Position numbers and translations under genes: made by a program. This document shows positions 18,876-62,186 of a DNA stretch of 63,530 nucleotides, in pieces (the stretch's first letter is position 1; the number at the start of each line of letters is the position of its first letter). Origin of the DNA: Gemmatimonadales bacterium (GTDB taxonomy: Bacteria > Gemmatimonadota > Gemmatimonadetes > Longimicrobiales > Gaopeijiaceae); contig REBP01000142.1 in assembly GCA_007692665.1 (NCBI GenBank), positions 1-63,530 on the forward strand, in the 5' to 3' direction. The notes under the pieces are model-generated. The model did no database searches and had not been told where the DNA came from. It worked only from the letters and a program-made list of their open reading frames with translations.

Positions 18876-18919
18876 GGATCCGCTGGCTTCCGGGGGAGCC
18901 TGCCCGTAGGTTGTCCGCC

Positions 18920-19924
18920 ATGACCACCTCCCTTCAGACCCAGAGTCCGGCCCTGGACTTCCAGGCAGCCGTGGCGCTTGCCGCACGCCTCGACGCCGAG
19001 GTCGGACGCGTCATCATCGGGCAGAACCAGGCGCGCCGCGAAATCCTCCTCTGCCTGCTTTCAGGCGGCCATGTCCTGCTTCGCGGAGTCCCCGGGCTGG
19101 CCAAGACCCTGCTGATCCGGACGCTGGCCGACGCCGTGAGCCTGAGATTCGGGCGGATCCAGTTCACGCCGGATCTCATGCCATCGGACATCGTGGGGAC
19201 CGAGGTCATCGAGGAAGATCCCGCCACCGGACGCAGGAGCGTGCGCTTCATTCCCGGTCCGATCTTCGCCAACATCCTCCTGGCCGACGAGATCAATCGC
19301 ACGCCCCCCCGGACCCAGGCGGCCCTCCTCGAGGCCATGCAGGAGTACCAGGTCACGGTCGGGGGGGTGCGTCACGAACTGGAACGGCCCCTCTTCGTGC
19401 TCGCCACGGAAAACCCCATCGAACAGGAAGGGACGCACCCCCTCCCCGAGGCCCAGCTCGATCGGTTCATGATGAACGTGATCATGGAATACCCGAAGCT
19501 GGAGGAGGAGCGCCGCATCCTGGCGGAGACCACCACCGGTGCCCCCTTCACGGTGGACCCGGTGGCCACCGGAGAAGACCTGGAGGCCGCCAGGGCCCTC
19601 GTCCGTGCGCTTCCCGCCGCCAGCAACGTCGTCGACCAGGCCCTTCGCCTGGTCCGTTCCACCCGCCCGGGCGATGCGTCGGCTCCGGAAGAGGCGAGGC
19701 GGTGGATCGAGTGGGGAGCCGGTCCGAGGGCGGGCCAGTCACTGGTCATCGGAGCCAAGGCCCTCGCGCTTCTCGAGGGTCGGAAGGTTCCCACGCCTCA
19801 GGATGTCGACGCGGTGGCCCTTCCCGTACTCCGGCACCGGGTCCTCCTCAACTTCCATGCCCAGGCCGAAGGCGTCACCCCGGACCAGGTCATCGGGCGC
19901 CTCCTGGCTTCGGCCCGGGCGTGA
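18920..19924 (+). CDS. MoxR-family AAA+ ATPase
   Basis: 334 residues. MoxR ATPases act as chaperones, usually with vWA-domain partners encoded next door. Walker A RGVPGLAKT at residues 55-63; Walker B LLADEINR with Asp123-Glu124; sensor segment FVLATENPIEQEGTHPLPEAQLDRF; C-terminal lid with the family's conserved VDAVALPVLRHRV. ATG 18920 was chosen over a TTG 9 nt upstream. The TGA stop overlaps the GTG of the DUF58 gene, so the pair is coupled. Confidence 0.95.
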   Translation: MTTSLQTQSPALDFQAAVALAARLDAEVGRVIIGQNQARREILLCLLSGGHVLLRGVPGLAKTLLIRTLADAVSLRFGRIQFTPDLMPSDIVGTEVIEEDPATGRRSVRFIPGPIFANILLADEINRTPPRTQAALLEAMQEYQVTVGGVRHELERPLFVLATENPIEQEGTHPLPEAQLDRFMMNVIMEYPKLEEERRILAETTTGAPFTVDPVATGEDLEAARALVRALPAASNVVDQALRLVRSTRPGDASAPEEARRWIEWGAGPRAGQSLVIGAKALALLEGRKVPTPQDVDAVALPVLRHRVLLNFHAQAEGVTPDQVIGRLLASARA

Positions 19925-20826
19925 ACCCGGGCGGGCCGTCGGTCCTCTCCGCTCGGGTCGTCGCCTCGCTCGGCGACCTTGAACTCGCCGCCCGGCTGGT
20001 GGTGGAGGGGATGCGGAGCGGAGGGCACCGGAGCCTTCAGCGGGGGTTCGGAACGGAGTTTCTGAAGCATCGTCCGTACCGCCCCGGCGACAGCCTTCGG
20101 TACCTCGACTGGAAGCTCCTGGCGCGGACGGACCGCCTGTACACCCGGCAGTTCAGGGAGACCACGAACCTGACCCTCCTCCTCGTGGTGGACACCAGCG
20201 CATCCATGGGATTTCCCCAGCCTGATGCGGAAGAGGGGGGCCCGACCAGGCTGAGATACGCCGCCGTCCTGGCCGCCTCTCTCGCATGGCTGGCCTCGAG
20301 CCGCGGGGATGCCGTTGGACTGCTCGCCCGCCTCGGGGGCGAGGTGATCCACGTTCCGCCCCGATCGGGACAGACCCATCTCCGCCGCGTCATCGCGTCC
20401 CTGGACGGCCTCGTGGCCGAGGGGAACTGGGCCCCCGTCCAGGCCATCGAGGATGCCGCGTCCAGGCTGAAGCGGCGCGGAATCGTCGTGGTTCTCTCGG
20501 ATTTCTACGACGATGAGGAATCCGTCCGGGGCTCGCTGCGCCGGGTGGCCCGCAGGGGTCACGACGTGTCGATGATCCAGCTCACTTCGGACCCGGAAAT
20601 GGAATTCCGCTTTCGTGGGGAACTGGAATTCGAGGATGCCGAATCCGGGCGGCGGGTGGTGACCAGCGCGGCGGTCGCCGGGGAGCTGGTCCGCAGCCGG
20701 ATCCGGTCCTTCCACGAAAGCCTCCGCGAGGGTGCCCTCCGGGACGGGATCGATCACGTCTGCATCTCGACCTCCGAGCCCCCGGGTCCGGCACTGCGCC
20801 GGCACCTCCTGGCCAGGGGGCGCTGA
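19921..20826 (+). CDS. DUF58 protein with intact vWA MIDAS
   Basis: 301 residues. DUF58 signature RGFGTEFLKHRPYRPGDSLR and YLDWKLLARTDRLYTRQF, followed by a von Willebrand A-like fold with an intact metal-ion site D-T-S-A-S (Asp91, Ser93, Ser95). It is the usual partner of MoxR. The GTG start overlaps the MoxR stop by 4 nt (GTGA). No signal peptide or membrane helix, so it is probably cytoplasmic and recruited to the membrane by the next genes. Ligand unknown. Confidence 0.93.
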   Translation: MNPGGPSVLSARVVASLGDLELAARLVVEGMRSGGHRSLQRGFGTEFLKHRPYRPGDSLRYLDWKLLARTDRLYTRQFRETTNLTLLLVVDTSASMGFPQPDAEEGGPTRLRYAAVLAASLAWLASSRGDAVGLLARLGGEVIHVPPRSGQTHLRRVIASLDGLVAEGNWAPVQAIEDAASRLKRRGIVVVLSDFYDDEESVRGSLRRVARRGHDVSMIQLTSDPEMEFRFRGELEFEDAESGRRVVTSAAVAGELVRSRIRSFHESLREGALRDGIDHVCISTSEPPGPALRRHLLARGR

Positions 20827-20830
20827 TCCC

Positions 20831-22300
20831 ATGACCTGGATGAACCCGTGGGCCTGGATCGGTCTCGGATCGCTGGCCATTCCCGTACTCGTGCACCTGC
20901 TGGCCCGGAATCGGGCCCAGGTCCGGATGGTGGCCACGCTCCGTTTCCTGGAGGCAACACCACCGGCGGCCACCAGCCCGTCGCGGATCCGGGACCCGCT
21001 CCTCCTTCTCCTTCGCCTCCTCATCCTGGCCGTGGCCGTCTCGGCGCTGGCTCGCCCCACGATCTCTGCCAGCCCGGCCGCAGGCCCAGGGGATCCTCCG
21101 CTGACCCGGGTGATCCTCGTCGATGCCGGTTCGGCGATGTCACGACTCGCACCGGACGGGGGGTCTGCCCTGGAGATGGCGCGCCGGCTCGCGCTGGAGG
21201 ACGTCTCGACGCGCGCTCGTGGGGGCGGGGAGGCTGGTTTCGCGGAAGGAGGAGGGCGGGGGCCGGCACGAGCAGGAAGCACCTACCTCCTCGAGGTCCC
21301 GCGAACGGGCGCGCTCGGCGCGGCCGCCTCGGGCGCCGCGTCCTACCTGGCGCGGGTCCCCGGTCGCCGCGAGATCGTGGTCTATTCGGTCCTGGGGGCT
21401 GGAGCCCTCCCGTCGGAGGGCGAAGGGGACCGGCTGAACGGAATCCCGCTCGTGTTTCGGCAGATTGATCTGGCCGCGGCTTCCCCCGACACCGCGACCA
21501 TCCGTCACCCGGCATCCGAAACCCGGATCCCGGTCTTCTCGGCAGGCGGCGGCATCGTGGCCGGGTGGGAAGCGACGGATCCACGACCGGGAATGGCGGA
21601 TTCCCTCCTGGGAGCGGGATCTGCCTTCCTTGCCGCAGAGATCTCGCGGTCCCCCGCGCCGGATCCCGGCTTCCCGCTGACGCTGGTGCTCGGAGCCGGA
21701 GATGTCCCCGAAGCTGCGGTGGCGACCGGATGGATCGGGACCCCGGAGGAGGTGGGGGACCTGGTCCTCGCGCTCGGCCGCGACGCGGCACTCGGGGCCG
21801 CGGCCCGAACTGCGAGCGTGGATGCGGGAACAGGGTCCGACCTGCAGGCACGGGGCACGGGTTCAACCGCGTCGACGATGCTGATTCGCACGGTCACGGG
21901 CGAGCCGGCGGTCCTCGTGGCGCCTGCCCGCGTCGGGGGTGAACCCGGCGTGCTCGTCGCGTCGGCAACCGGACCCGACGCCTTCCTTTCATCCGCCGTC
22001 GTCGGGGCGGTGGGAAGGGGGGCTCGGCGGGAGACCGCCTCCCGCGAACTCGACCCTCGGCTCCATTCCCCCGAGGAGGTCCTGGCCTGGACGGAACGAT
22101 TCGGGGGCGAGGGGGGGATCGCGGCGGGTGCGGCGGGTGCGGCGGGTGCCCGAGGCTCGGGAGGGGCGGGAGGATCGGCACGGGAGGAGGCGCCGGACCC
22201 CGCGGAGGGCACGGGGGAAACCCGGTTCCTCTGGGCCCTGGTCCTCCTCCTCCTCACCGCGGAGTGGCGGCTGCGCCTTCGAACCGGGGGCGTCCGGTGA
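20831..22300 (+). CDS. BatA-like membrane protein with degenerate vWA site
   Basis: 489 residues. The N-terminus is the BatA 'aerotolerance' segment: a first helix (WAWIGLGSLAIPVLVHLLAR), then a second after an RDP motif (LLLLLRLLILAVAVSALARP). A vWA-like domain follows, but the metal site reads D-A-G-S-A (Asp98 onwards) where D-x-S-x-S is expected, so metal binding is doubtful. A Gly/Ala-rich linker (three 9-bp repeats) leads to a final helix FLWALVLLLLTAEW. It begins 4 nt after the DUF58 gene and overlaps the next by 4 nt. Likely a membrane platform for the MoxR-DUF58 pair. Confidence 0.85.
   Translation: MTWMNPWAWIGLGSLAIPVLVHLLARNRAQVRMVATLRFLEATPPAATSPSRIRDPLLLLLRLLILAVAVSALARPTISASPAAGPGDPPLTRVILVDAGSAMSRLAPDGGSALEMARRLALEDVSTRARGGGEAGFAEGGGRGPARAGSTYLLEVPRTGALGAAASGAASYLARVPGRREIVVYSVLGAGALPSEGEGDRLNGIPLVFRQIDLAAASPDTATIRHPASETRIPVFSAGGGIVAGWEATDPRPGMADSLLGAGSAFLAAEISRSPAPDPGFPLTLVLGAGDVPEAAVATGWIGTPEEVGDLVLALGRDAALGAAARTASVDAGTGSDLQARGTGSTASTMLIRTVTGEPAVLVAPARVGGEPGVLVASATGPDAFLSSAVVGAVGRGARRETASRELDPRLHSPEEVLAWTERFGGEGGIAAGAAGAAGARGSGGAGGSAREEAPDPAEGTGETRFLWALVLLLLTAEWRLRLRTGGVR
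22121..22147 (+). repeat. Three tandem copies of a 9-bp unit
   Basis: GCGGCGGGT repeated three times in the BatA-like gene, coding for an Ala-Ala-Gly linker before the last membrane helix. Being a multiple of three, copy changes would alter linker length only. Confidence 0.7.
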
Positions 22301-24696
22301 CCCCGGTGGACCCTCGCCTCCGCGCACCCCTCGGGGTGGTGTCTCGCCGCCTCGTCCTGCTGGCCGCGATGAACGGAGGGCTGGCCGGGCTCCTGGTCGC
22401 GGTCCTGGGACTCGTTGCCTGGATGCTGGCCCACCCCCTGCTTCCCCATGGTTCCGGTCCGGGCGTGTCTCGGGCCGCGGGATGGTTGGGCGTGGGCGCG
22501 GTGGCGGGGATGGCTCTCTCCCTCCACGCCCGGTTCCGGGCCCGCCGTCGCCATGGAGGGTGGCTCCGCGATGCTGCCCGGCAGGTGGAGTCAAGGATTC
22601 CGGAGAGCCGAAACCTGGTGCTGACGGCCGCCGAGTTCTCCGGGGCCCCTCGGCCGCCTGACGCGAAGGTCAGGGAGTCGATCCTGGCCGATGCGGCGGC
22701 CCTTCTGAACGACGGGTCATCCCGGGTCCTGGTGCCGCTGCACACCACCGGAATCTCCCTTGTCGGGACCGTCTCTCTGGCGGTCGGCCTCCTGCTCGCG
22801 GTCTCCGCCATGGGCGACCGTCGCGGCGATCCCTCCGGATTTCCCGCCCCCGGCGGCGGCCCCTTGTCGACGGCCGAGTCAGGCGCGCAGGCGGGACTGG
22901 ACGTCGTGCTCCGGGTCGTGCCCCCGGCCTACTCCGGCGACTCCGTGCAGGTGCACCGGAACCCCCAGCGGGTCGACGCCCTGAAGGGGAGTCGTCTGGA
23001 ACTCCAGGTGCGGCTGCCGGCTCGACCGGGCGGCCGGGCGCGGGGCGCCGACGGCGGCGAGACCGTCGTGCTCGAGACGCTCGACGGGCGCAGGGAACTG
23101 CGATACGAAGGTTCCGGAGAATTCGTGGGCGAGATGATGCTGGAAGTGGACGGCTTCCTGGCGCTCGAGCGCCAGGAGGCGGTTCGCCCGGCCGGAGCCG
23201 ACCCGGCGCCGTCCCCTCGACGCCTCATCGGGCTGGGTGCCCTCGCGGACCCCCCGCCCACCGTCCGCATCTCCGCACCGGGGCAGGACCTCTACCTGCC
23301 CGACGGAAACCGGGTCCTCGATCTCGAGATCGAGGCCACCGACGACCGCGCGCTCCGGACCCTCGAACTCCTCTTCACGAGGGTGAGTGGTTTCGGAGAG
23401 CTCTTCGACTTCAGGGAAGGCACGATCCCCCTCGAGATCACGCGTCACGAGCCGGGCCGGTGGACGGCTCGTGCGCAATGGAATCTCGGGGAACTCGACC
23501 TCGACCGCGGTGATATCGTGGTCTACCGGGCCGTGGCCCACGACCGGCTCCCGGGGGGTGCTCCCGGGGAATCCGACACCTGGACCGTGGAGATCCTGGG
23601 ATCCGAGGCCGCGCCTTCCGGGGGGTTTGCCGGGGAAGACGAAATGACCCGCTATGGCCTGAGCCAGCAGATGGTCATCCTTCTCACGGAACGAGTGCGG
23701 GAGCAGCGCGCCGTGCTGTCTGCGGAACGCCTCGCGGAGGAGGCCTTCCGGCTCGCCGCGGCACAGCGCCGCGTCCGTGCTGAATTCGTGTTCATGCTGG
23801 GGGGCGAGCTCGAGGACGGTCACGACCACGCCGATGCACCCGGGACGGGCGATGCCGGTCGTGCCGAGGACCGTCACGATCACGATCACGACCATGGCCA
23901 CGGCCACGCCGCCGGGGCCGGGGGGGCCGCCGTGGCCGGCGCCGGATTCGACGGCGGCGACGCCCGCACCGCGCAGGAACTCCACGAGGAAGCCCACGCC
24001 CGCGTCGATGCCGACGCCGCGGAAGGGCGACTCGCCCAGGCCGGACGCATCGAGCTTTCGAGGGCGATCCAGGCCATGAGCCAGGCCGTGAACCATCTGA
24101 ACGCCGTGGACCTCGACGCCGCGCTGGCGGCAGAAGCCCGCGCCCTGGAATACCTCCAGCGCGCCTTCTCGAGTTCGCGGTACCTGCTCAGGGCGCTGTC
24201 CGAACGGGAGGAACTGGATCCGGGTCGCCGGCTGAGCGGCGAACGGGGCAGCGCCGTGTCCGCCCGTCGCCCGCAGGTGGCGGACGGCCCCGACCGGGAC
24301 CTCGCCGAGCTTCGGGAGATCCTGGGGCAGGTGATCCGACTGGTCCCCGGGGGCGCGGGCCCCCCTCCCTCCGGACCTCCCTCCGCCCCCGGGGGCCGGG
24401 CCGATGCCGCGGCCTCGCCTCCGGTCCCGGAGGCCTCCCGCCTCGGGGCCCGCCTGCTGGCTGTCGACCCGGCATCCCGGACGCTTCAGCGCCTCTCTGC
24501 GTCGCTTTCCGGTCCTCTACCGCCGGGGCCGGACGGCGCTCCGGGGAGAGAGCTTCTGGACGTCATCACGGAGCTCTCCCGCTACCTTCGCACCCGTCAT
24601 CCTCCGCACCCCGGCACCCCTTCCATCCACGGTCTCAGGCACATGGAAGGCGCCTGGGCAGAAGCGCTCCAGCGCGCCGGTGCGGGGTCGCGGTGA
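22297..24696 (+). CDS. DUF4175-like large membrane protein with His-rich insert
   Basis: 799 residues from GTG 22297, which overlaps the previous stop. Three N-terminal hydrophobic helices (about residues 20-45, 60-80 and 145-165), then a long soluble part with beta-rich repeats (VVPPAYSGDSVQ; a DLEIEATDDRALRTLEL segment) and a C-terminal helical, probably coiled-coil part. An insert at about residues 508-538 is extremely histidine-rich (DRHDHDHDHGHGH). Length and layout resemble DUF4175 proteins, which occur in MoxR clusters; the assignment is from memory of that architecture and is moderate. It overlaps the following gene by GTGA. Confidence 0.65.
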   Translation: MTPVDPRLRAPLGVVSRRLVLLAAMNGGLAGLLVAVLGLVAWMLAHPLLPHGSGPGVSRAAGWLGVGAVAGMALSLHARFRARRRHGGWLRDAARQVESRIPESRNLVLTAAEFSGAPRPPDAKVRESILADAAALLNDGSSRVLVPLHTTGISLVGTVSLAVGLLLAVSAMGDRRGDPSGFPAPGGGPLSTAESGAQAGLDVVLRVVPPAYSGDSVQVHRNPQRVDALKGSRLELQVRLPARPGGRARGADGGETVVLETLDGRRELRYEGSGEFVGEMMLEVDGFLALERQEAVRPAGADPAPSPRRLIGLGALADPPPTVRISAPGQDLYLPDGNRVLDLEIEATDDRALRTLELLFTRVSGFGELFDFREGTIPLEITRHEPGRWTARAQWNLGELDLDRGDIVVYRAVAHDRLPGGAPGESDTWTVEILGSEAAPSGGFAGEDEMTRYGLSQQMVILLTERVREQRAVLSAERLAEEAFRLAAAQRRVRAEFVFMLGGELEDGHDHADAPGTGDAGRAEDRHDHDHDHGHGHAAGAGGAAVAGAGFDGGDARTAQELHEEAHARVDADAAEGRLAQAGRIELSRAIQAMSQAVNHLNAVDLDAALAAEARALEYLQRAFSSSRYLLRALSEREELDPGRRLSGERGSAVSARRPQVADGPDRDLAELREILGQVIRLVPGGAGPPPSGPPSAPGGRADAAASPPVPEASRLGARLLAVDPASRTLQRLSASLSGPLPPGPDGAPGRELLDVITELSRYLRTRHPPHPGTPSIHGLRHMEGAWAEALQRAGAGSR

Positions 24697-26576
24697 CGTT
24701 CGCACCGGCCCTTCCCCGTCTCCTCCGGACCCTTGCCGTCGCCATCGTGGTTCTGGCCCTCCTGGACCCGGCGCTTCCCTCCGGACGCCACGCAGACCGG
24801 GTTGTCGCCGTGGTCGCCGCAGGCGAGTCCCCGGGCGTGTCCGGGGCCGGCGCCTCCTGGCCCGATCAGGTTGCAGACCGACTTGCCGGCAGGTTCACGG
24901 TCGTCCGGGGGCCCTACCCCGGCGCCAGCGCGACCGTCCTGGCCGGAGATCACCTGCCGGCGGCCCTGTCGGAGGGGTCGCTCTTCCTGCCCCCCCCCGT
25001 TTTCGTCGCCCACCCCGCCGCCGCCGGGGCCCCGGCACGCCCTCGCCTGGTGCACCTGGAGGCCCCCCGCCGGGTTTCGCCCGAGTCGGCGATCCCCGTG
25101 CGGGCCTGGATCGCGCCGGGGGGCGAACCGGGGACCTCGCTTCGCGCCGCCCTCCGCGTGGACGGTGTGGTGGTGTCCGACACGGTCCTGCGGCGCCCGG
25201 AAGGGGGGACGGCTCCGGTGATGGTTCGGTTCGAGATCGTGCCGACACGGAGCGGACCCCTCCCGCTTCGCGTGGAGATCCATCCCGCGGGGGTCGGCGA
25301 CGACACGGTGCCCTGGAGCGCGGCCGATGTGCTCGTCCACGTGTCTCCCCGCCCGTGGGAAGTTCTCTTCTTCGAGGGTCGCCCCTCCTGGTTGTCGACC
25401 TTCGTGCGCCGGGCTCTCGAGCCCGATGCGCGCTTCGCCGTCACGAGCCGAACGGTGACGTCGCCTGGCCTCGCCACGCAGTTCGGCGCCCCTCCGGCCT
25501 CCCTCGCCTCCCCCCGGGCCCTGGACGGCTTCGACGCCGTGGTGGTGGGGGCCCCGGAGCTCCTTTCGGGGAATGACGTGGCCGCGCTCCAGCTGTTCAT
25601 GGAGATGCGTGGAGGATCGGTCCTCCTCCTTCCCGATCGAGAGGCGTCCGGGCCCCACGACCGCCTGACCGGCGTCACGGCCTGGACCCGCGGGGGCGCC
25701 GCCGATCCGGTGCGCCTGACCCCGGCCGCCGAGGCGGGGGTGGAACGGCCTGCCCTGGAGGCCCGCTCGATGATCTGGCCGGACCCGCTTCCACCGGGGG
25801 CCCAGGTCGTCGCGGCGACGCCGTCCGGGGACCCCGTCATCTGGAGGCGCCCGGTGGGGAAGGGACAACTCGTCGTGAGCGGGGCGCTGGACAGCTGGCA
25901 GTTCCGCGACCCCGAGACCACGACGTTCGAACCCGCCTGGCGCGAACTCGTGGGCGAAGCCGCCGACCTGGCCCCCGGTCCCCTCGCGGTCGAGTGGATC
26001 GGTACCCACGCGGGGGGCGGCGGGGGGTTCGGTGCCGCGTCGGGTGTGGTCGCCCCCGGGGCGCTCCTGCGGTTCGGTGTGACGCTGAGGGAGACTCCGG
26101 CGCCCGGAGCCCGGGTGTGGGCCCGTGCCGACCTGGGTCCGTCGGGGAAAGAGGTGGAGGTCGACCGCCTGATCCCGCTCTGGCCCGTCGAGGTGCCCGG
26201 TCGATTCGAGGGCCGGTTCCACGCTCCCGCCGCCTCCGGCCCCCACCTCCTCGAAATCCGTGTCGAGGGTGGGGACCCGTGGGGAGACGGAACGGCATGG
26301 CGTCATGCCGCCACGCTGCCCCTGGTGGTGCTTGCCGATGCGGCGAGCCCTCCTCCCGACGACCCTGCCCTCATGGAGGCGTGGGCCGCCTCGAGGGGTG
26401 GCACCCTTCGCGCCAGCGACGAGCTCGCCGCACTCGAGGCGGAGATCCTGCGAGCCGTCGGGGCCGAAGGGCCGTCCGACCCGTGGCATCCCATGAGGTC
26501 CCCGTGGTGGATCCTCCCCCTGGCACTCCTCCTGGGCGGGGAGTGGGCCTCCAGACGCCGGCGGGGACTGTCCTGA
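24693..26576 (+). CDS. BatA/GATase-like membrane protein
   Basis: 627 residues with one N-terminal helix (LAVAIVVLALLDPALPS) and a C-terminal helix near WWILPLALLLGGEW. Between them are beta-rich segments and a flavodoxin-like region starting WEVLFFEGRPSWLSTFVRRAL and continuing FDAVVVGAPELLSGNDVAAL, as in class I glutamine-amidotransferase-like domains of MoxR-cluster membrane proteins. No catalytic Cys nucleophile elbow is evident, so the domain is probably not an amidotransferase. Last gene of the overlapping five-gene cluster that starts with moxR. Biochemical role unknown. Confidence 0.65.
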   Translation: MTFAPALPRLLRTLAVAIVVLALLDPALPSGRHADRVVAVVAAGESPGVSGAGASWPDQVADRLAGRFTVVRGPYPGASATVLAGDHLPAALSEGSLFLPPPVFVAHPAAAGAPARPRLVHLEAPRRVSPESAIPVRAWIAPGGEPGTSLRAALRVDGVVVSDTVLRRPEGGTAPVMVRFEIVPTRSGPLPLRVEIHPAGVGDDTVPWSAADVLVHVSPRPWEVLFFEGRPSWLSTFVRRALEPDARFAVTSRTVTSPGLATQFGAPPASLASPRALDGFDAVVVGAPELLSGNDVAALQLFMEMRGGSVLLLPDREASGPHDRLTGVTAWTRGGAADPVRLTPAAEAGVERPALEARSMIWPDPLPPGAQVVAATPSGDPVIWRRPVGKGQLVVSGALDSWQFRDPETTTFEPAWRELVGEAADLAPGPLAVEWIGTHAGGGGGFGAASGVVAPGALLRFGVTLRETPAPGARVWARADLGPSGKEVEVDRLIPLWPVEVPGRFEGRFHAPAASGPHLLEIRVEGGDPWGDGTAWRHAATLPLVVLADAASPPPDDPALMEAWAASRGGTLRASDELAALEAEILRAVGAEGPSDPWHPMRSPWWILPLALLLGGEWASRRRRGLS

Positions 26577-26590
26577 GGGCGGGCCGAGGC

Positions 26591-26620
26591 TTGACGATGG
26601 ACCTCCCCCGGGCGTACGAT
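26591..26620 (+). promoter_or_regulatory. Candidate sigma-70 promoter for tldE-tldD
   Basis: TTGACG (26591-26596, 5/6) and TACGAT (26615-26620, 4/6) with 18-nt spacing, placed in the 97-nt gap between the five-gene MoxR cluster and tldE. Predicted start about 26627, leaving a leader of about 47 nt. Confidence 0.5.
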
Positions 26621-26673
26621 GCCCGGTTCATCCACCCATCCAGCACGGCCCCCTCCGCCCAGACCCCGGATTC

Positions 26674-27978
26674 ATGTACACACGCGAAGAGTTCCGAGCC
26701 ATCGCCGAGCAGATCATCGACATGGCCGCGCCCGATCCCATCGAGGTCAACCTGCGGGGTGGAGAGCGCTCCGGCACGCGCTGGGCCAACTCCTCGATCA
26801 CGGTGAACCTCGTCCAGTACGACCGGCAGGTCTCGGTTTCCCTCCACCGCGGGATGCGGGTGGGAATGGCGAACACCCGGGACTTCAGCGAAGCCGGCCT
26901 GAGGGCCCTGGTGGCCGAGGCGCGGGCCGACGCGGAGAGTTCGGAGGAGCGGGAGTCCCTTCCCGAACTCATCGGGCCCCAGGACTATCTCGAGATCGAT
27001 GCGGCCCTCCCCGACATGGTGGATTTCGGGCCCGGGGGTCGTGCCGAGATGGTGCGCCAGAGCCTGGACCTCTCCGAGGGGATGGGGGTGATCGGCTACG
27101 GGTACATCCCGAAGAACGACCAGGCCACCTGCCGGGCCAACTCGGAGGGCCTCTTCGCCTACGAGCGCGAGGCACAGAGCAGCTTCGTGCTGACCTGCCG
27201 CACACCGGACGGCAGGGGCTCGGGGTGGGCCGGCACCACGGGGATCAAGGACCTTTCCATGATCGACGCCCGTGAACTCACGCGGAGAGCTGGAGAAAAG
27301 GCACTCCTCAGCGCGAATGCCCGTGCCATCGAGCCGGGCCGCTACTCGGTGATTCTCGAGCCGCGGGCCAACGCTCGGTTCCTCTCGCTGATGACCGGGA
27401 TCTTTACCGGCGGGGGTGGCGGCAGCGGCTTCATGGAAGGGCGGGAGCGCGGGGAGAAGCTCTTCAGCGATCTCCTCACCCTCCGGAGCGACATCGGGAA
27501 CCCCATCCTCCGGCAGTCCACGATCCTTCCGAACTTCCGTCCCGCCGCACCGGTGACCTGGGTGGAGAACGGTGTCCTCCGGAACTTCGGGACCGGGCTG
27601 GGGGCGACGCCCGGCATGAGCCTCGTCATGGAGGGGTCGAACCAGTCGCTGGAAGAGATGATCTCGCAGACCCGGAGAGGTCTTCTGGTGAGCTTCTTCT
27701 GGTACATCCGCGGCGTTCCGGCGACCGATCAGCCACTCCTGAATACCGGCATGACCCGGGACGGCCTGTTCCTCATCGAGAACGGCGAGGTCACCGGGGC
27801 CGTGCAGAATTTCCGGTGGAATATGTCGCCCATCGTGGGCTACAACAATCTGGTCGCCGTCGGACGTCCCGAGCCCATGCACATGGGCGAATCCTACGAC
27901 GGCGGGAACACCGCCCTCATTCCGCCCGTGCGAATCGAGGACTTCAACATGTCCTCCAGCTCCCCGGCGGTCGAGTGA
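26674..27978 (+). CDS. tldE: TldE/PmbA-family protein
   Basis: 434 residues of the TldD/PmbA family, without the HEXXXH zinc motif, so this is the non-catalytic TldE-type half of the TldD-TldE protease known to process small peptides such as microcin B17. Visible features: N-terminal domain with the antigen-like WANSSITVNLVQYDRQVSV, central ARAIEPGRYSVILEPRANAR, and C-terminal NGEVTGAVQNFRWNMSP. No signal peptide is visible, whereas the partner TldD has a twin-arginine signal. It is 31-37 nt before tldD, so the two are co-transcribed. Confidence 0.9.
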   Translation: MYTREEFRAIAEQIIDMAAPDPIEVNLRGGERSGTRWANSSITVNLVQYDRQVSVSLHRGMRVGMANTRDFSEAGLRALVAEARADAESSEERESLPELIGPQDYLEIDAALPDMVDFGPGGRAEMVRQSLDLSEGMGVIGYGYIPKNDQATCRANSEGLFAYEREAQSSFVLTCRTPDGRGSGWAGTTGIKDLSMIDARELTRRAGEKALLSANARAIEPGRYSVILEPRANARFLSLMTGIFTGGGGGSGFMEGRERGEKLFSDLLTLRSDIGNPILRQSTILPNFRPAAPVTWVENGVLRNFGTGLGATPGMSLVMEGSNQSLEEMISQTRRGLLVSFFWYIRGVPATDQPLLNTGMTRDGLFLIENGEVTGAVQNFRWNMSPIVGYNNLVAVGRPEPMHMGESYDGGNTALIPPVRIEDFNMSSSSPAVE

Positions 27979-28015
27979 ACCCGGCAGCGAACGCCCCCAA
28001 CCGAAAGGCATGTCC

Positions 28016-29671
28016 ATGACCCCGTCCCGCCGCGAGTTTCTCGCAACCATGGGCGCCGGCACGCTGGCCCTCTATTCCCATGACCTCGTCGCGCAGCTCC
28101 TGGCGGACGGTCCGCGTGGGGACCCCGAAAACTCGCGATTCCGGGGGCTCTCGGACATTGCCCTGGCGGAGGCCCGCCGCGAGGGATGCACGTACGCGGA
28201 CATCCGGTTCACGCTGAACCAGAACCTCCCGGGCGCCTCCGCCAGCTACACGGCGGAGGGGGAAGGTGGCGGTGGCGGTGGTGGCGGTGGTGGCGGGGGT
28301 GGTTTCGGCGGCGGTGGTGGGGCCGGGGCCTTCACCGGCCTGCCCACCGACGAGGAGCGTCAGCCGGCGGGCTTCGGGATCCGGGTCATCCACAGTGGCG
28401 TCTGGGGCTTCGCCTCGAGCCCCATCGTCACCGAGGACGAGATCCGCCGCATCGCACGGATGGCCTCGGAGGTGGCACGGGCGAGCGCCATCGCGAAGCG
28501 CGACGACGTCCGCCTCACCCCGGTGGACCCGGTCATCGCCAGCTGGAAGACGCCCCTGCGCGTCGACCCGCTCACCGTCTCCGAGACGGACCGGGAGAAC
28601 TGGGCCCAGTCCATCGTGGACAGGGCGTCCGCCGTGCCGGGGGTGATCCGGGTCGCGGCGGCGGCGCGCATCGCCTACGAGTGGCGCTACTTCGCATCCA
28701 CCGAAGGGTCCTACATCGAGCAGGAGTCCTACACGACCACCCCGACGCTGAGCGTGACGGGACGCGTGAACGGCGAGACGCGCACGCGGAACTACCCGGG
28801 CGAGGCCCTCATGGGCGGCTGGGAGGTTGCCGCGGAATCCAAGCTGCTGCGGGATGCCGAGAAGGCGGCCGTGGACGCGGTGGAGATGTGCACGGCGCGT
28901 CCCCTGGGAGGCCCGGGGATGCGGGACCTGATCCTGTCGCCCTCCCATGCCATGCTCACGATCCACGAGATCATCGGCCACGCCACCGAGCTGGACCGGA
29001 TCGTGGGGATGGAGGCGAACTACGCCGGGACGAGCTTCATCGGCCTCGAGGACGTGGGTCGCCTCAAGTACGGATCCGAGATGTTCAACGTCACGGCGGA
29101 CCGGAACTCGAGGGGCCTGTCCTCCATCGGGTACGACGACGACGGCGTGGAGACCCAGGAGTGGCCCATCGTCCGGGACGGGATCCTGGTGGGGCTGCAG
29201 ACGAACCGGGAGACCGCCCATTACCTGGGCGAGGACTTCAGCAGGGGGTGCACCTACGCGTCCTCGTGGCGCGACTACCCGTTCCTCCGCATGCCCAATG
29301 TCCACGTGGATGCGGGCCCGGTGGGGTCTCCCTCGCTTGCGGAGCTGATCGCCGACGTGCGGGACGGCGTGATGATCGACGGGCGCGGGAGCTACTCCAT
29401 CGATCAGCAGCGCTACAACGGCCAGTTCGGCGGTCACATCTTCTGGGAGATCAAGGACGGCGAGATCACCCGCCAGTGCACCGACGTGACCTACCAGGCG
29501 ATCACGACGGACTTCTGGGCCAACCTCGACGGGATCACGGGCCCGGACGAATACGAGATGCATGGCACGGGAGGCGATGCGAAGGGACAGCCCACCCAGA
29601 CCCAGAGCCTGTCCCACGGGTCGCCCTGGCTGCTCATCCGGAACACCATGGTGAACGGGGCCTTCGGCTGA
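28016..29671 (+). CDS. tldD: TldD-family metallopeptidase with twin-arginine signal
   Basis: 551 residues. The zinc-peptidase half of TldD-TldE: HEIIGH (His317 to His322, the HEXXXH motif) followed by ATELDRIVG. N-terminus MTPSRREFLATMGAGTLAL is a twin-arginine signal (Arg5-Arg6), so export is predicted; TldD is normally cytoplasmic. ATG 28016 has GAAAGG 7 nt upstream; ATG 28010 adds two residues. A run of 13 glycines (84-96) interrupts the N-terminal domain. The Cys normally found in the C-terminal CGKGQP-type motif is replaced (GGDAKGQP), so the third zinc ligand may differ. Confidence 0.9.
   Translation: MTPSRREFLATMGAGTLALYSHDLVAQLLADGPRGDPENSRFRGLSDIALAEARREGCTYADIRFTLNQNLPGASASYTAEGEGGGGGGGGGGGGGFGGGGGAGAFTGLPTDEERQPAGFGIRVIHSGVWGFASSPIVTEDEIRRIARMASEVARASAIAKRDDVRLTPVDPVIASWKTPLRVDPLTVSETDRENWAQSIVDRASAVPGVIRVAAAARIAYEWRYFASTEGSYIEQESYTTTPTLSVTGRVNGETRTRNYPGEALMGGWEVAAESKLLRDAEKAAVDAVEMCTARPLGGPGMRDLILSPSHAMLTIHEIIGHATELDRIVGMEANYAGTSFIGLEDVGRLKYGSEMFNVTADRNSRGLSSIGYDDDGVETQEWPIVRDGILVGLQTNRETAHYLGEDFSRGCTYASSWRDYPFLRMPNVHVDAGPVGSPSLAELIADVRDGVMIDGRGSYSIDQQRYNGQFGGHIFWEIKDGEITRQCTDVTYQAITTDFWANLDGITGPDEYEMHGTGGDAKGQPTQTQSLSHGSPWLLIRNTMVNGAFG
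28265..28321 (+). repeat. Glycine-codon microsatellite in tldD
   Basis: Thirteen consecutive GGN codons (GGT/GGC), then TTC and five more GGN codons. A length-variable triplet tract would alter the poly-glycine loop without shifting the frame. Confidence 0.75.
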
Positions 29672-29683
29672 GGCGGGCGCAGG

Positions 29684-29715
29684 GGGCCGCCCCGGGGGTG
29701 CCGCCCGGGCGGCCC
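29684..29715. terminator. Bidirectional hairpin between tldD and the DUF4159 gene
   Basis: GGGCCGCCC (29684-29692) pairs perfectly with GGGCGGCCC (29707-29715) across a 14-nt loop, in the 74-nt gap between two convergent genes. No T-run on either strand; plausible shared terminator. Confidence 0.5.
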
Positions 29716-29745
29716 GATCTGCGCGCGACGTTCGCTGTCGAGCCC

Positions 29746-30549
29746 TCAGGTCATGGCGTAAACCACCAGATTCACCGCGAATCGCGTGTTGTCTTCGGAG
29801 CGGAAGCGCTTGTTCCGCCAGTCATAGTCCCATTCGCAGCCGTAGTCCTTGTAGGAATAGAGCACGCCGATCCGGTTGCGGTGCTCGACGGCCTTCAGGT
29901 ACTCGTGGACCATGTTGTCCCCCCAGCCGTTCAGCTCGTGGCTGGTCTGGGGAGGGCCGTCCGGGAAGGAGAAGAAGGCGGAGTAGAGCGGGTGGGAATT
30001 CGGGATCTTCGGGAGCGGGTCGTAGTCGGGGCCGGCACCCGGGAACACCCGCGCCATCTCCGCCTCGAACGACTTGGCGTAGAGCCCCTCGATGTCGTGG
30101 TTGCAATCGTCGGAAAAGAGGAAGCCTCCGCTTCGGACGTAGCGCCGGATTCCCTCCCTCTCGGCCTCGCTGAACCTGACGAGCTTGTGGCCCGTCATGA
30201 AGACGAAGGGAAACGCCGAAAGCTCTTCCGAGTCCGCGGTGATCACGACCTCTTCGCCGTGCACCGGGATCTGCGTATACTGGAGGACGGAATCGAGCAC
30301 GTTGGCGCAGACCTTGGGATTGTAGTCCCAGTCGCCGGAATCGTACCGGAGTCGGGCGAAGACGAATTCATGGCGGTCCGCACCAGAACCGGATCTCGAG
30401 GCCGAAGAAGATGTGCTCCCGCTGCTCTCGTCCATGGTACCCAGGAGATCCGCCGGCGTGACGGCTCCCCCCAGGGTTCCGGCCGCAACCCCCGCTGCGG
30501 CCTGTCCGAGACGGCGAAGAAACTTTCGACGATCGAGGGGGGCATCCAT
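29746..30549 (-). CDS. DUF4159 protein with twin-arginine signal
   Basis: 267 residues. The start was set at the ATG giving MDAPLDRRKFLRRLGQ, a twin-arginine signal (Arg7-Arg8) with a hydrophobic stretch and an Ala-rich cleavage region; the frame is open further upstream but with no homologous content. The mature part matches DUF4159: FARLRYDSGDWDYNP, FPFVFMTGHKLVRFS, RYVRSGGFLFSDDCNHD and NRIGVLYSYKDYGCEWDY. DUF4159 is commonly fused to or next to BatA-like proteins in MoxR clusters; here it is a separate exported protein convergent to tldD. Function unknown. Confidence 0.88.
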   Translation of the reverse strand: MDAPLDRRKFLRRLGQAAAGVAAGTLGGAVTPADLLGTMDESSGSTSSSASRSGSGADRHEFVFARLRYDSGDWDYNPKVCANVLDSVLQYTQIPVHGEEVVITADSEELSAFPFVFMTGHKLVRFSEAEREGIRRYVRSGGFLFSDDCNHDIEGLYAKSFEAEMARVFPGAGPDYDPLPKIPNSHPLYSAFFSFPDGPPQTSHELNGWGDNMVHEYLKAVEHRNRIGVLYSYKDYGCEWDYDWRNKRFRSEDNTRFAVNLVVYAMT

Positions 30550-30773
30550 GGAAGTCCGGGGTGGGGGGAGCAGGGTCTGGGGGGTTCGCCTGACGAGACG
30601 AGAGAAGGGCCGTCTCCTCGCGGATGAACCCTTTCCCACGGTAGCCCGCTCCCCGCGCTGGCGCAACGTGGATGTGAGGGCTGCGCCGAACCTGGATGGG
30701 GTATGATTCCTGCTCACATGCTGCGCCATTGCACGCAGCGTCCTCAGAGCCGAAGCCCAGAAAAGGGAACTAC
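30550..30773. other. Divergent intergenic region
   Basis: 224 nt separate the divergent starts of the DUF4159 gene (minus) and ugd (plus) and must hold both promoters. A good -10 for ugd, TATGAT (30702-30707, 5/6), is visible but no matching -35. No clear minus-strand promoter was found. Confidence 0.35.
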
Positions 30774-61331: not shown

Positions 61332-62186
61332 ATGACCCCCCGTCTGCCCGGTTTCGGCCGCCGCTCGGCGCCGCCTTCGGCCGCCGCCGGCGAGATGCCC
61401 TTTCTCGATCACCTCGAGGAACTCCGGCACCGGCTCTTCAAGATTCTCGGCGCGCTCGTGGTCGGCGTCGGGATCGGCCTCTTCCTCGTGGTCCACTACG
61501 AGGGGATCGTCATGGGGCTGCTGGTTTCGCCCATCGAACCCTACCTCGACGGTGGCCAGCTGGCCTACTTCAGTCCCACCACCGCCTTCATGTTCACGCT
61601 GAAGCTCGGAATCCTGGTGGGGATCCTTCTCGCGCTTCCGGTCGTAGTATACCAGGTCTGGGCCTTCTTCTCGCCGGCGCTGGAAGTCGAGGAAAAGAAG
61701 GTCATCGTTCCGAGTCTCTATCTTGGCCTGGTCCTGTTCGGCGCCGGTGCCACCCTGGCCTACATCTTCGTGCTTCCGCTGGCACTCCGCTTTCTGATGG
61801 GGTTCCAGGTGGAGTATCTCCGGGCCACCATCGAGGCGGGGCAGTACCTGGGGTTCGTGATCCGGCTGCTACTCGCCTTCGGGGCGGTCTTCGAGCTCCC
61901 CGTCGTGATCATCATCCTGTCGGCCATGGGGCTCATCACCCCCGGGTTCATGCGCGAAAAGCGGCGCCACGCCATCGTCGGTGCCACCGTGCTTGCGAGT
62001 CTCCTGACGCCCGGAGACCTGGCCTCCACGCTCCTCATGATGGGGCCCATGATCGTTCTTTACGAAGTGAGCATCGTGTTGTCAGCCATGATCTATCGAA
62101 AGAAGAGAGCGCGGGAGGAGAGCGAGGCGGAAGCGTTGCGTCCCTCCGGCGAACCTCCCGAAGGCGCCGTGGAGTCGAGCCCATGA
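61332..62186 (+). CDS. tatC: Sec-independent translocase TatC
   Basis: 284 residues with six predicted transmembrane helices. TatC recognises the twin-arginine signal. N-terminal FLDHLEELRHRLFK with its conserved Glu, FSPTTAFMFTLKLG, LPVVVYQVWAFFSPAL, and the final two helices are all typical. Twin-arginine cargo candidates in this window are TldD and the DUF4159 protein. It overlaps the next gene by ATGA. tatA is not in the window. Confidence 0.96.
   Translation: MTPRLPGFGRRSAPPSAAAGEMPFLDHLEELRHRLFKILGALVVGVGIGLFLVVHYEGIVMGLLVSPIEPYLDGGQLAYFSPTTAFMFTLKLGILVGILLALPVVVYQVWAFFSPALEVEEKKVIVPSLYLGLVLFGAGATLAYIFVLPLALRFLMGFQVEYLRATIEAGQYLGFVIRLLLAFGAVFELPVVIIILSAMGLITPGFMREKRRHAIVGATVLASLLTPGDLASTLLMMGPMIVLYEVSIVLSAMIYRKKRAREESEAEALRPSGEPPEGAVESSP

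Follow-up and report, generated by a model that had tools for sequence, protein, structure and literature searches.

A twin-arginine signal on TldD and none on TldE suggests joint export of the pair in a Gemmatimonadales bacterium and its relatives

The TldD and TldE proteins are widespread and are treated as cytoplasmic, and to our knowledge the TldD/E protease is known only from the cytoplasm. The E. coli pair, a microcin-processing protease (PDB 5NJ5-5NJF), consists of TldD and a non-catalytic TldE; its activity depends on having both subunits, and the TldD homodimer was too unstable for purification (PMC5810440). The metal in E. coli TldD is coordinated by the two histidines of the HExxxH motif and by Cys454, a third ligand that can be replaced by Asp, as for example in Gemmatimonas (PMC5810440). 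Hitch-hiking of subunits without a signal through the Tat system is established for HybOC and PaoABC, where HybC, PaoB and PaoC travel with a partner that carries the Tat signal (PMC4273604). Full-text searches of an open-access collection turned up no publication that connects a Tat signal with TldD or PmbA.

The window, a stretch of 63,530 nucleotides from a Gemmatimonadales bacterium, carries tldE and tldD on the forward strand with a gap of 31 bp between them (Table 1), and the gene boundaries are as originally predicted. As in E. coli, PmbA/TldD domains are found in both proteins by Pfam (for TldD, PF19289 with E 2e-24 and PF01523 with E 5e-6), and the predicted fold of TldD matches that of E. 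coli TldD (5njc) with a Foldseek E-value of 7e-30. The two systems also share the division into a TldD with the HExxxH motif, of which H319, E320 and H324 are invariant in an alignment of 26 TldDs, and a non-catalytic TldE, the motif not being found in the window protein. Identity between the window and E. coli TldDs is only about 18%, however, and the former has a 38-residue Tat segment in front of the fold, a glycine-rich loop and Asp523 as third ligand rather than Cys; the window pair is moreover presumed to lie outside the inner membrane. Against the NCBIfam TldD equivalogs the window protein scores 89.5 bits for NF040952 (cut-off 635 bits) and 33.7 bits for NF008006 (cut-off 513 bits) and, because both scores are below the curated cut-offs, it is a homologue of these proteins that belongs to a different equivalog. 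TldE also has a glycine-rich loop of low confidence in the predicted structure, at about residues 243-252, and in the alignments the length of the loops in both proteins is highly variable between homologues. The source genome (95% complete, in 258 contigs) was found to contain only this one TldD/TldE pair.

Table 1. Coordinates of the features discussed, in positions of the window.
Feature	Position	Strand	Basis
Upstream genes: MoxR AAA, DUF58, BatA-type, DUF4175-like (weak), unnamed ORF	18911-26576	+	Pfam, ORFs
tldE, PmbA-type, 434 aa	26674-27978	+	ORF, Pfam
Probable ribosome-binding sequence AAAGG of start codon ATG 28016	28004-28008	+	Read from sequence
tldD, 553 aa	28010-29671	+	ORF, Pfam PF19289/PF01523, fold match 5njc
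Tat signal region preceding the TldD fold (N-terminal residues 1-38)	28010-28123	+	pLDDT 37-56; codon-level purifying selection
Twin-arginine codons R7-R8 (S-R-R-E-F-L)	28028-28033	+	Alignment of 26 TldDs
Low-confidence, glycine-rich loop in TldD (approximately residues 83-110)	28256-28339	+	Predicted structure, alignment
Zinc motif HExxxH (HEIIGH, H319-E320-H324, residues 319-324 of TldD)	28964-28981	+	Invariant in alignment
Asp523 (GGDAKGQ), third metal ligand of TldD replacing E. coli Cys454	29576-29578	+	Alignment; ligand identity PMC5810440
DUF4159 protein with own Tat signal, convergent to tldD	29746-30729	-	PF13709 E 7e-54; TIGR01409 over cut-off
tatC (Pfam match 61407-62048, E 1e-59)	61332-62186	+	ORF, Pfam; only TatC found in genome

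The N-terminus of TldD reads SRREFLATMGAGTLALYS (in a longer stretch, MSMTPSRREFLATMGAGTLALYSHDLVAQLLADG) and contains the RR.F[LVI] motif as SRREFL. R7, R8 and F10 are invariant in all 26 aligned TldDs, which come from Gemmatimonadota- and Acidobacteria-labelled records. Over the first 45 codons the tldD genes of L037 and L069 differ at 2 first, 3 second and 20 third codon positions and, because the differences concentrate at the third, the signal region is translated and under purifying selection at the codon level. AlphaFold assigns low confidence to residues 1-38 and has the fold beginning near residue 41. Translation is more likely to start at ATG 28016 (M3) than at 28010, because the AAAGG lies at a better spacing, 7 nt upstream of M3, and the RR motif is retained from either codon. 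Initiation behind the signal, which the original prediction had named as a possible refutation, is not borne out: the next start in frame, M14 (28049), was rejected, since it would drop the RR from a segment that is under codon-level selection.

The signal had been described as classical, which is an overstatement; it appears genuine but atypical. The isolated N-terminus of the window TldD scores 13.9 bits against TIGR01409, for which the cut-off is 16.7, and a full-length scan with the same model missed it. TIGR01409 matches 13 of the 26 aligned TldDs at E up to 1, the best at 4e-5, and PF10518 matches 11. In the clade of the window the uncharged stretch after the RR is short (median 12.5) and AxA occurs in 13% of sequences, as against 60% in the sister clade, where the signals are classical, all three figures being approximate as the motif used to split the clades also admits a few members of the sister clade. 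The window TldD has no obvious AxA cleavage site after the h-region, and in most sequences of its clade the uncharged stretch is followed by a conserved Asp. It is possible that the signal is left uncleaved in this clade.

TldE, as originally noted, starts directly in the folded domain (MYTREEFRAIAEQIID). Its residues 1-20 form a confidently folded helix in the predicted structure, and the 59 codons between the nearest upstream stop and the start contain no in-frame ATG, GTG or TTG. The 16 aligned TldEs begin near the same residue and none of them matches TIGR01409. Elsewhere in the survey, the TldE N-termini of L091 (METIRRRDAIRRAV) and L105 (MNRRELIGRAVPRAG) show an RR motif without a hydrophobic stretch, possibly by chance or as a remnant. 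Three proteins flagged by the script as TldEs with signals were rejected, L061_4958 being a third TldD (HEIVSH) and the starts of L081 and L099 falling inside the domain. The cysteine content of TldE, 2.2 versus 3.3 on average, is a weak marker of export and is uncorrected for kinship.

A survey covered TldDs and TldEs of Gemmatimonadota, Acidobacteriota and a third group, drawn from Gemmatimonadota-type relatives, from a set of genome contigs and from the phyla of G405 and G407. The 5′ end is complete in 198 of the TldDs collected, and for 187 of these the third ligand was readable by motif search; Tat signals were called by a motif-and-hydrophobicity script followed by inspection, SignalP not being used. 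About 120 of these TldDs carry a Tat motif. Among 83 pairs with a Tat-signal TldD no convincing export signal was found on TldE, a single case (L064) being ambiguous; this is the comparison that the original prediction had called for. The arrangement is not a peculiarity of this genome; a Tat signal on TldD and none on TldE is the family rule in two large TldD clades. The gene tldE stays adjacent to tldD, and the two proteins diverge in parallel (Spearman 0.75, 72 pairs), as expected for partners and partly also from shared descent. Three genomes (G019, which is one contig, G068 and G255) each contain four Tat-signal TldDs and four TldEs without a signal, and in rows checked by hand none of them has a TldD that lacks one. 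Only such rows of the per-genome tally are used, since some others count one gene twice through a truncated copy or list TldDs without HExxxH as TldE.

The survey also revealed departures from a simple pair. At six Acidobacteria-labelled loci (L051, L052, L053, L060, L062 and L064) two Tat-signal TldDs flank one TldE, and at L061 three TldDs follow one TldE. At L184, L185, L187 and L188 (genomes G017, G053, G098 and G006) the TldE is adjoined by Tat-signal TldD homologues (MTWSRRDFLRTGSAFAAAG) in which both the HExxxH motif (FNASIVN, for example, replaces HEIIGH) and the third ligand are missing. These ligand-less homologues, which occur in G006 and in g2, a genus in the same family as the window, are apparently exported and non-catalytic.

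The identity of the third ligand goes together with the signal. Of the TldDs with Asp at the position of the E. coli Cys zinc ligand (Asp-type), 123 of 126 carry the Tat motif, compared with none of the 61 Cys-type proteins. The three exceptions (L300, L301 and L307), placed near the base of clade B in the tree described below, show that the Asp ligand does not require export. Two other apparent exceptions were rejected: L313, flagged as Cys-type with a Tat motif, has SKRRRAIVPHEINE, which is not a signal, and L086, flagged as Asp-type without one, carries TTRRDFVKTLSAV. In a tree of 140 rows built from the TldD region without the signal, the rows with both features fall into two clades. Clade A comprises 28 rows including the window, with the Cys-type, Tat-less L304 and L305 as sisters, and clade B comprises 56 Tat rows and the three Asp rows without Tat, its sister being L068 and L313-L315, again Cys-type and without Tat. 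The tree requires two changes of ligand and three of the Tat motif; the two features thus switch together about twice, which is too few independent events for a significance test. The change from Cys to Asp is identical to that in the Gemmatimonas TldD of PMC5810440; the text of that paper makes no mention of periplasm or secretion, whereas here the Asp coincides with the Tat motif, an association that is new. One interpretation is that an oxidising compartment disfavours a Cys ligand.

The tatC gene lies in the window, as originally stated, and two TatA/B genes were found in the genome. Parts of the gene order at 18911-30729 recur at L036, L039 and L041, where two large ORFs lie upstream of tldE, L036 also having the DUF4159 gene. 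This neighbourhood suggests an envelope role for the Tld pair.

It would seem likely that the two proteins form one zinc protease outside the inner membrane, with TldE hitch-hiking on the Tat signal of TldD. Both would fold, bind metal and pair up in the cytoplasm, and the twin-arginine peptide of TldD would then take the pair through TatABC with the signal-less TldE carried along. Outside the inner membrane the HExxxH motif and Asp523 of TldD would hold the metal within a closed TldD/E shell, and in the window's clade the signal may be retained uncleaved and serve as an anchor. That the complex forms before joint export we infer from E. coli TldD/E and from the parallel divergence. The arrangement would resemble HybOC and PaoABC, which likewise have one subunit with a Tat signal, a partner without and linked genes. 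Counting against this reading are the score of the window N-terminus below the curated Tat cut-off, the short uncharged stretch and the scarcity of AxA in its clade, and the RR motifs in the TldEs of L091 and L105, even if these lack a hydrophobic stretch.

The atypical features of the signal, together with the conserved Asp behind it, the good conservation of the segment further downstream, which is not usual where a signal is cleaved, and the three Asp-type relatives without a Tat segment, could also mean that the RR segment does not work as an export signal and that the pair stays in the cytoplasm like that of E. coli. We consider this unlikely given the invariance of RR.F across 26 sequences of both labels, the matches of homologues to two curated Tat models, the classical signals of the sister-clade TldDs, the position of the segment outside the predicted fold and the absence of any such segment from Cys-type TldDs. 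The original prediction left open whether TldE is co-exported or TldD leaves alone, and of these it is hitch-hiking that is favoured, because several genomes have no TldD without a signal and the E. coli enzyme requires both subunits (PMC5810440). Export of TldD alone, as a homodimer or with some other partner while TldE remains in the cytoplasm, would account for the missing TldE signal and for the Acidobacteria-labelled loci with two TldDs beside one TldE, and an active TldD homodimer has been reported from Sulfolobus (cited in PMC5810440). It is nevertheless quite improbable: as the only TldD of the window genome carries the signal, a TldE that stayed in the cytoplasm would lack a partner, and the same holds in G019, G068 and G255 as no signal-less TldD is present there; moreover, tldE stays adjacent to tldD and diverges in parallel with it. 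Least credible, and very improbable, is a route of its own for TldE, through a missed upstream start or non-classical export; an upstream start would add a hydrophobic stretch at L064, but the window offers no such codon and the 16 aligned TldEs all begin similarly without a signal match.

Joint export of TldD with a hitch-hiking TldE may extend well beyond the window. Rather tentatively, and with somewhat less than even confidence, two TldD clades could have moved a cytoplasmic protease that shreds peptides to the envelope through a Tat signal confined to TldD, TldE hitch-hiking in every case, with Asp taking the place of the oxidisable Cys ligand at about the same time and the exported TldD later becoming non-catalytic in some lineages. 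If the proteins are exported in these clades, TldD/E gains an envelope function. The hitch-hikers described in PMC4273604 are redox enzymes, whereas the Tat hitch-hiker complex proposed here would be a metalloprotease, and the Asp in place of Cys would be a sequence marker of exported TldD.
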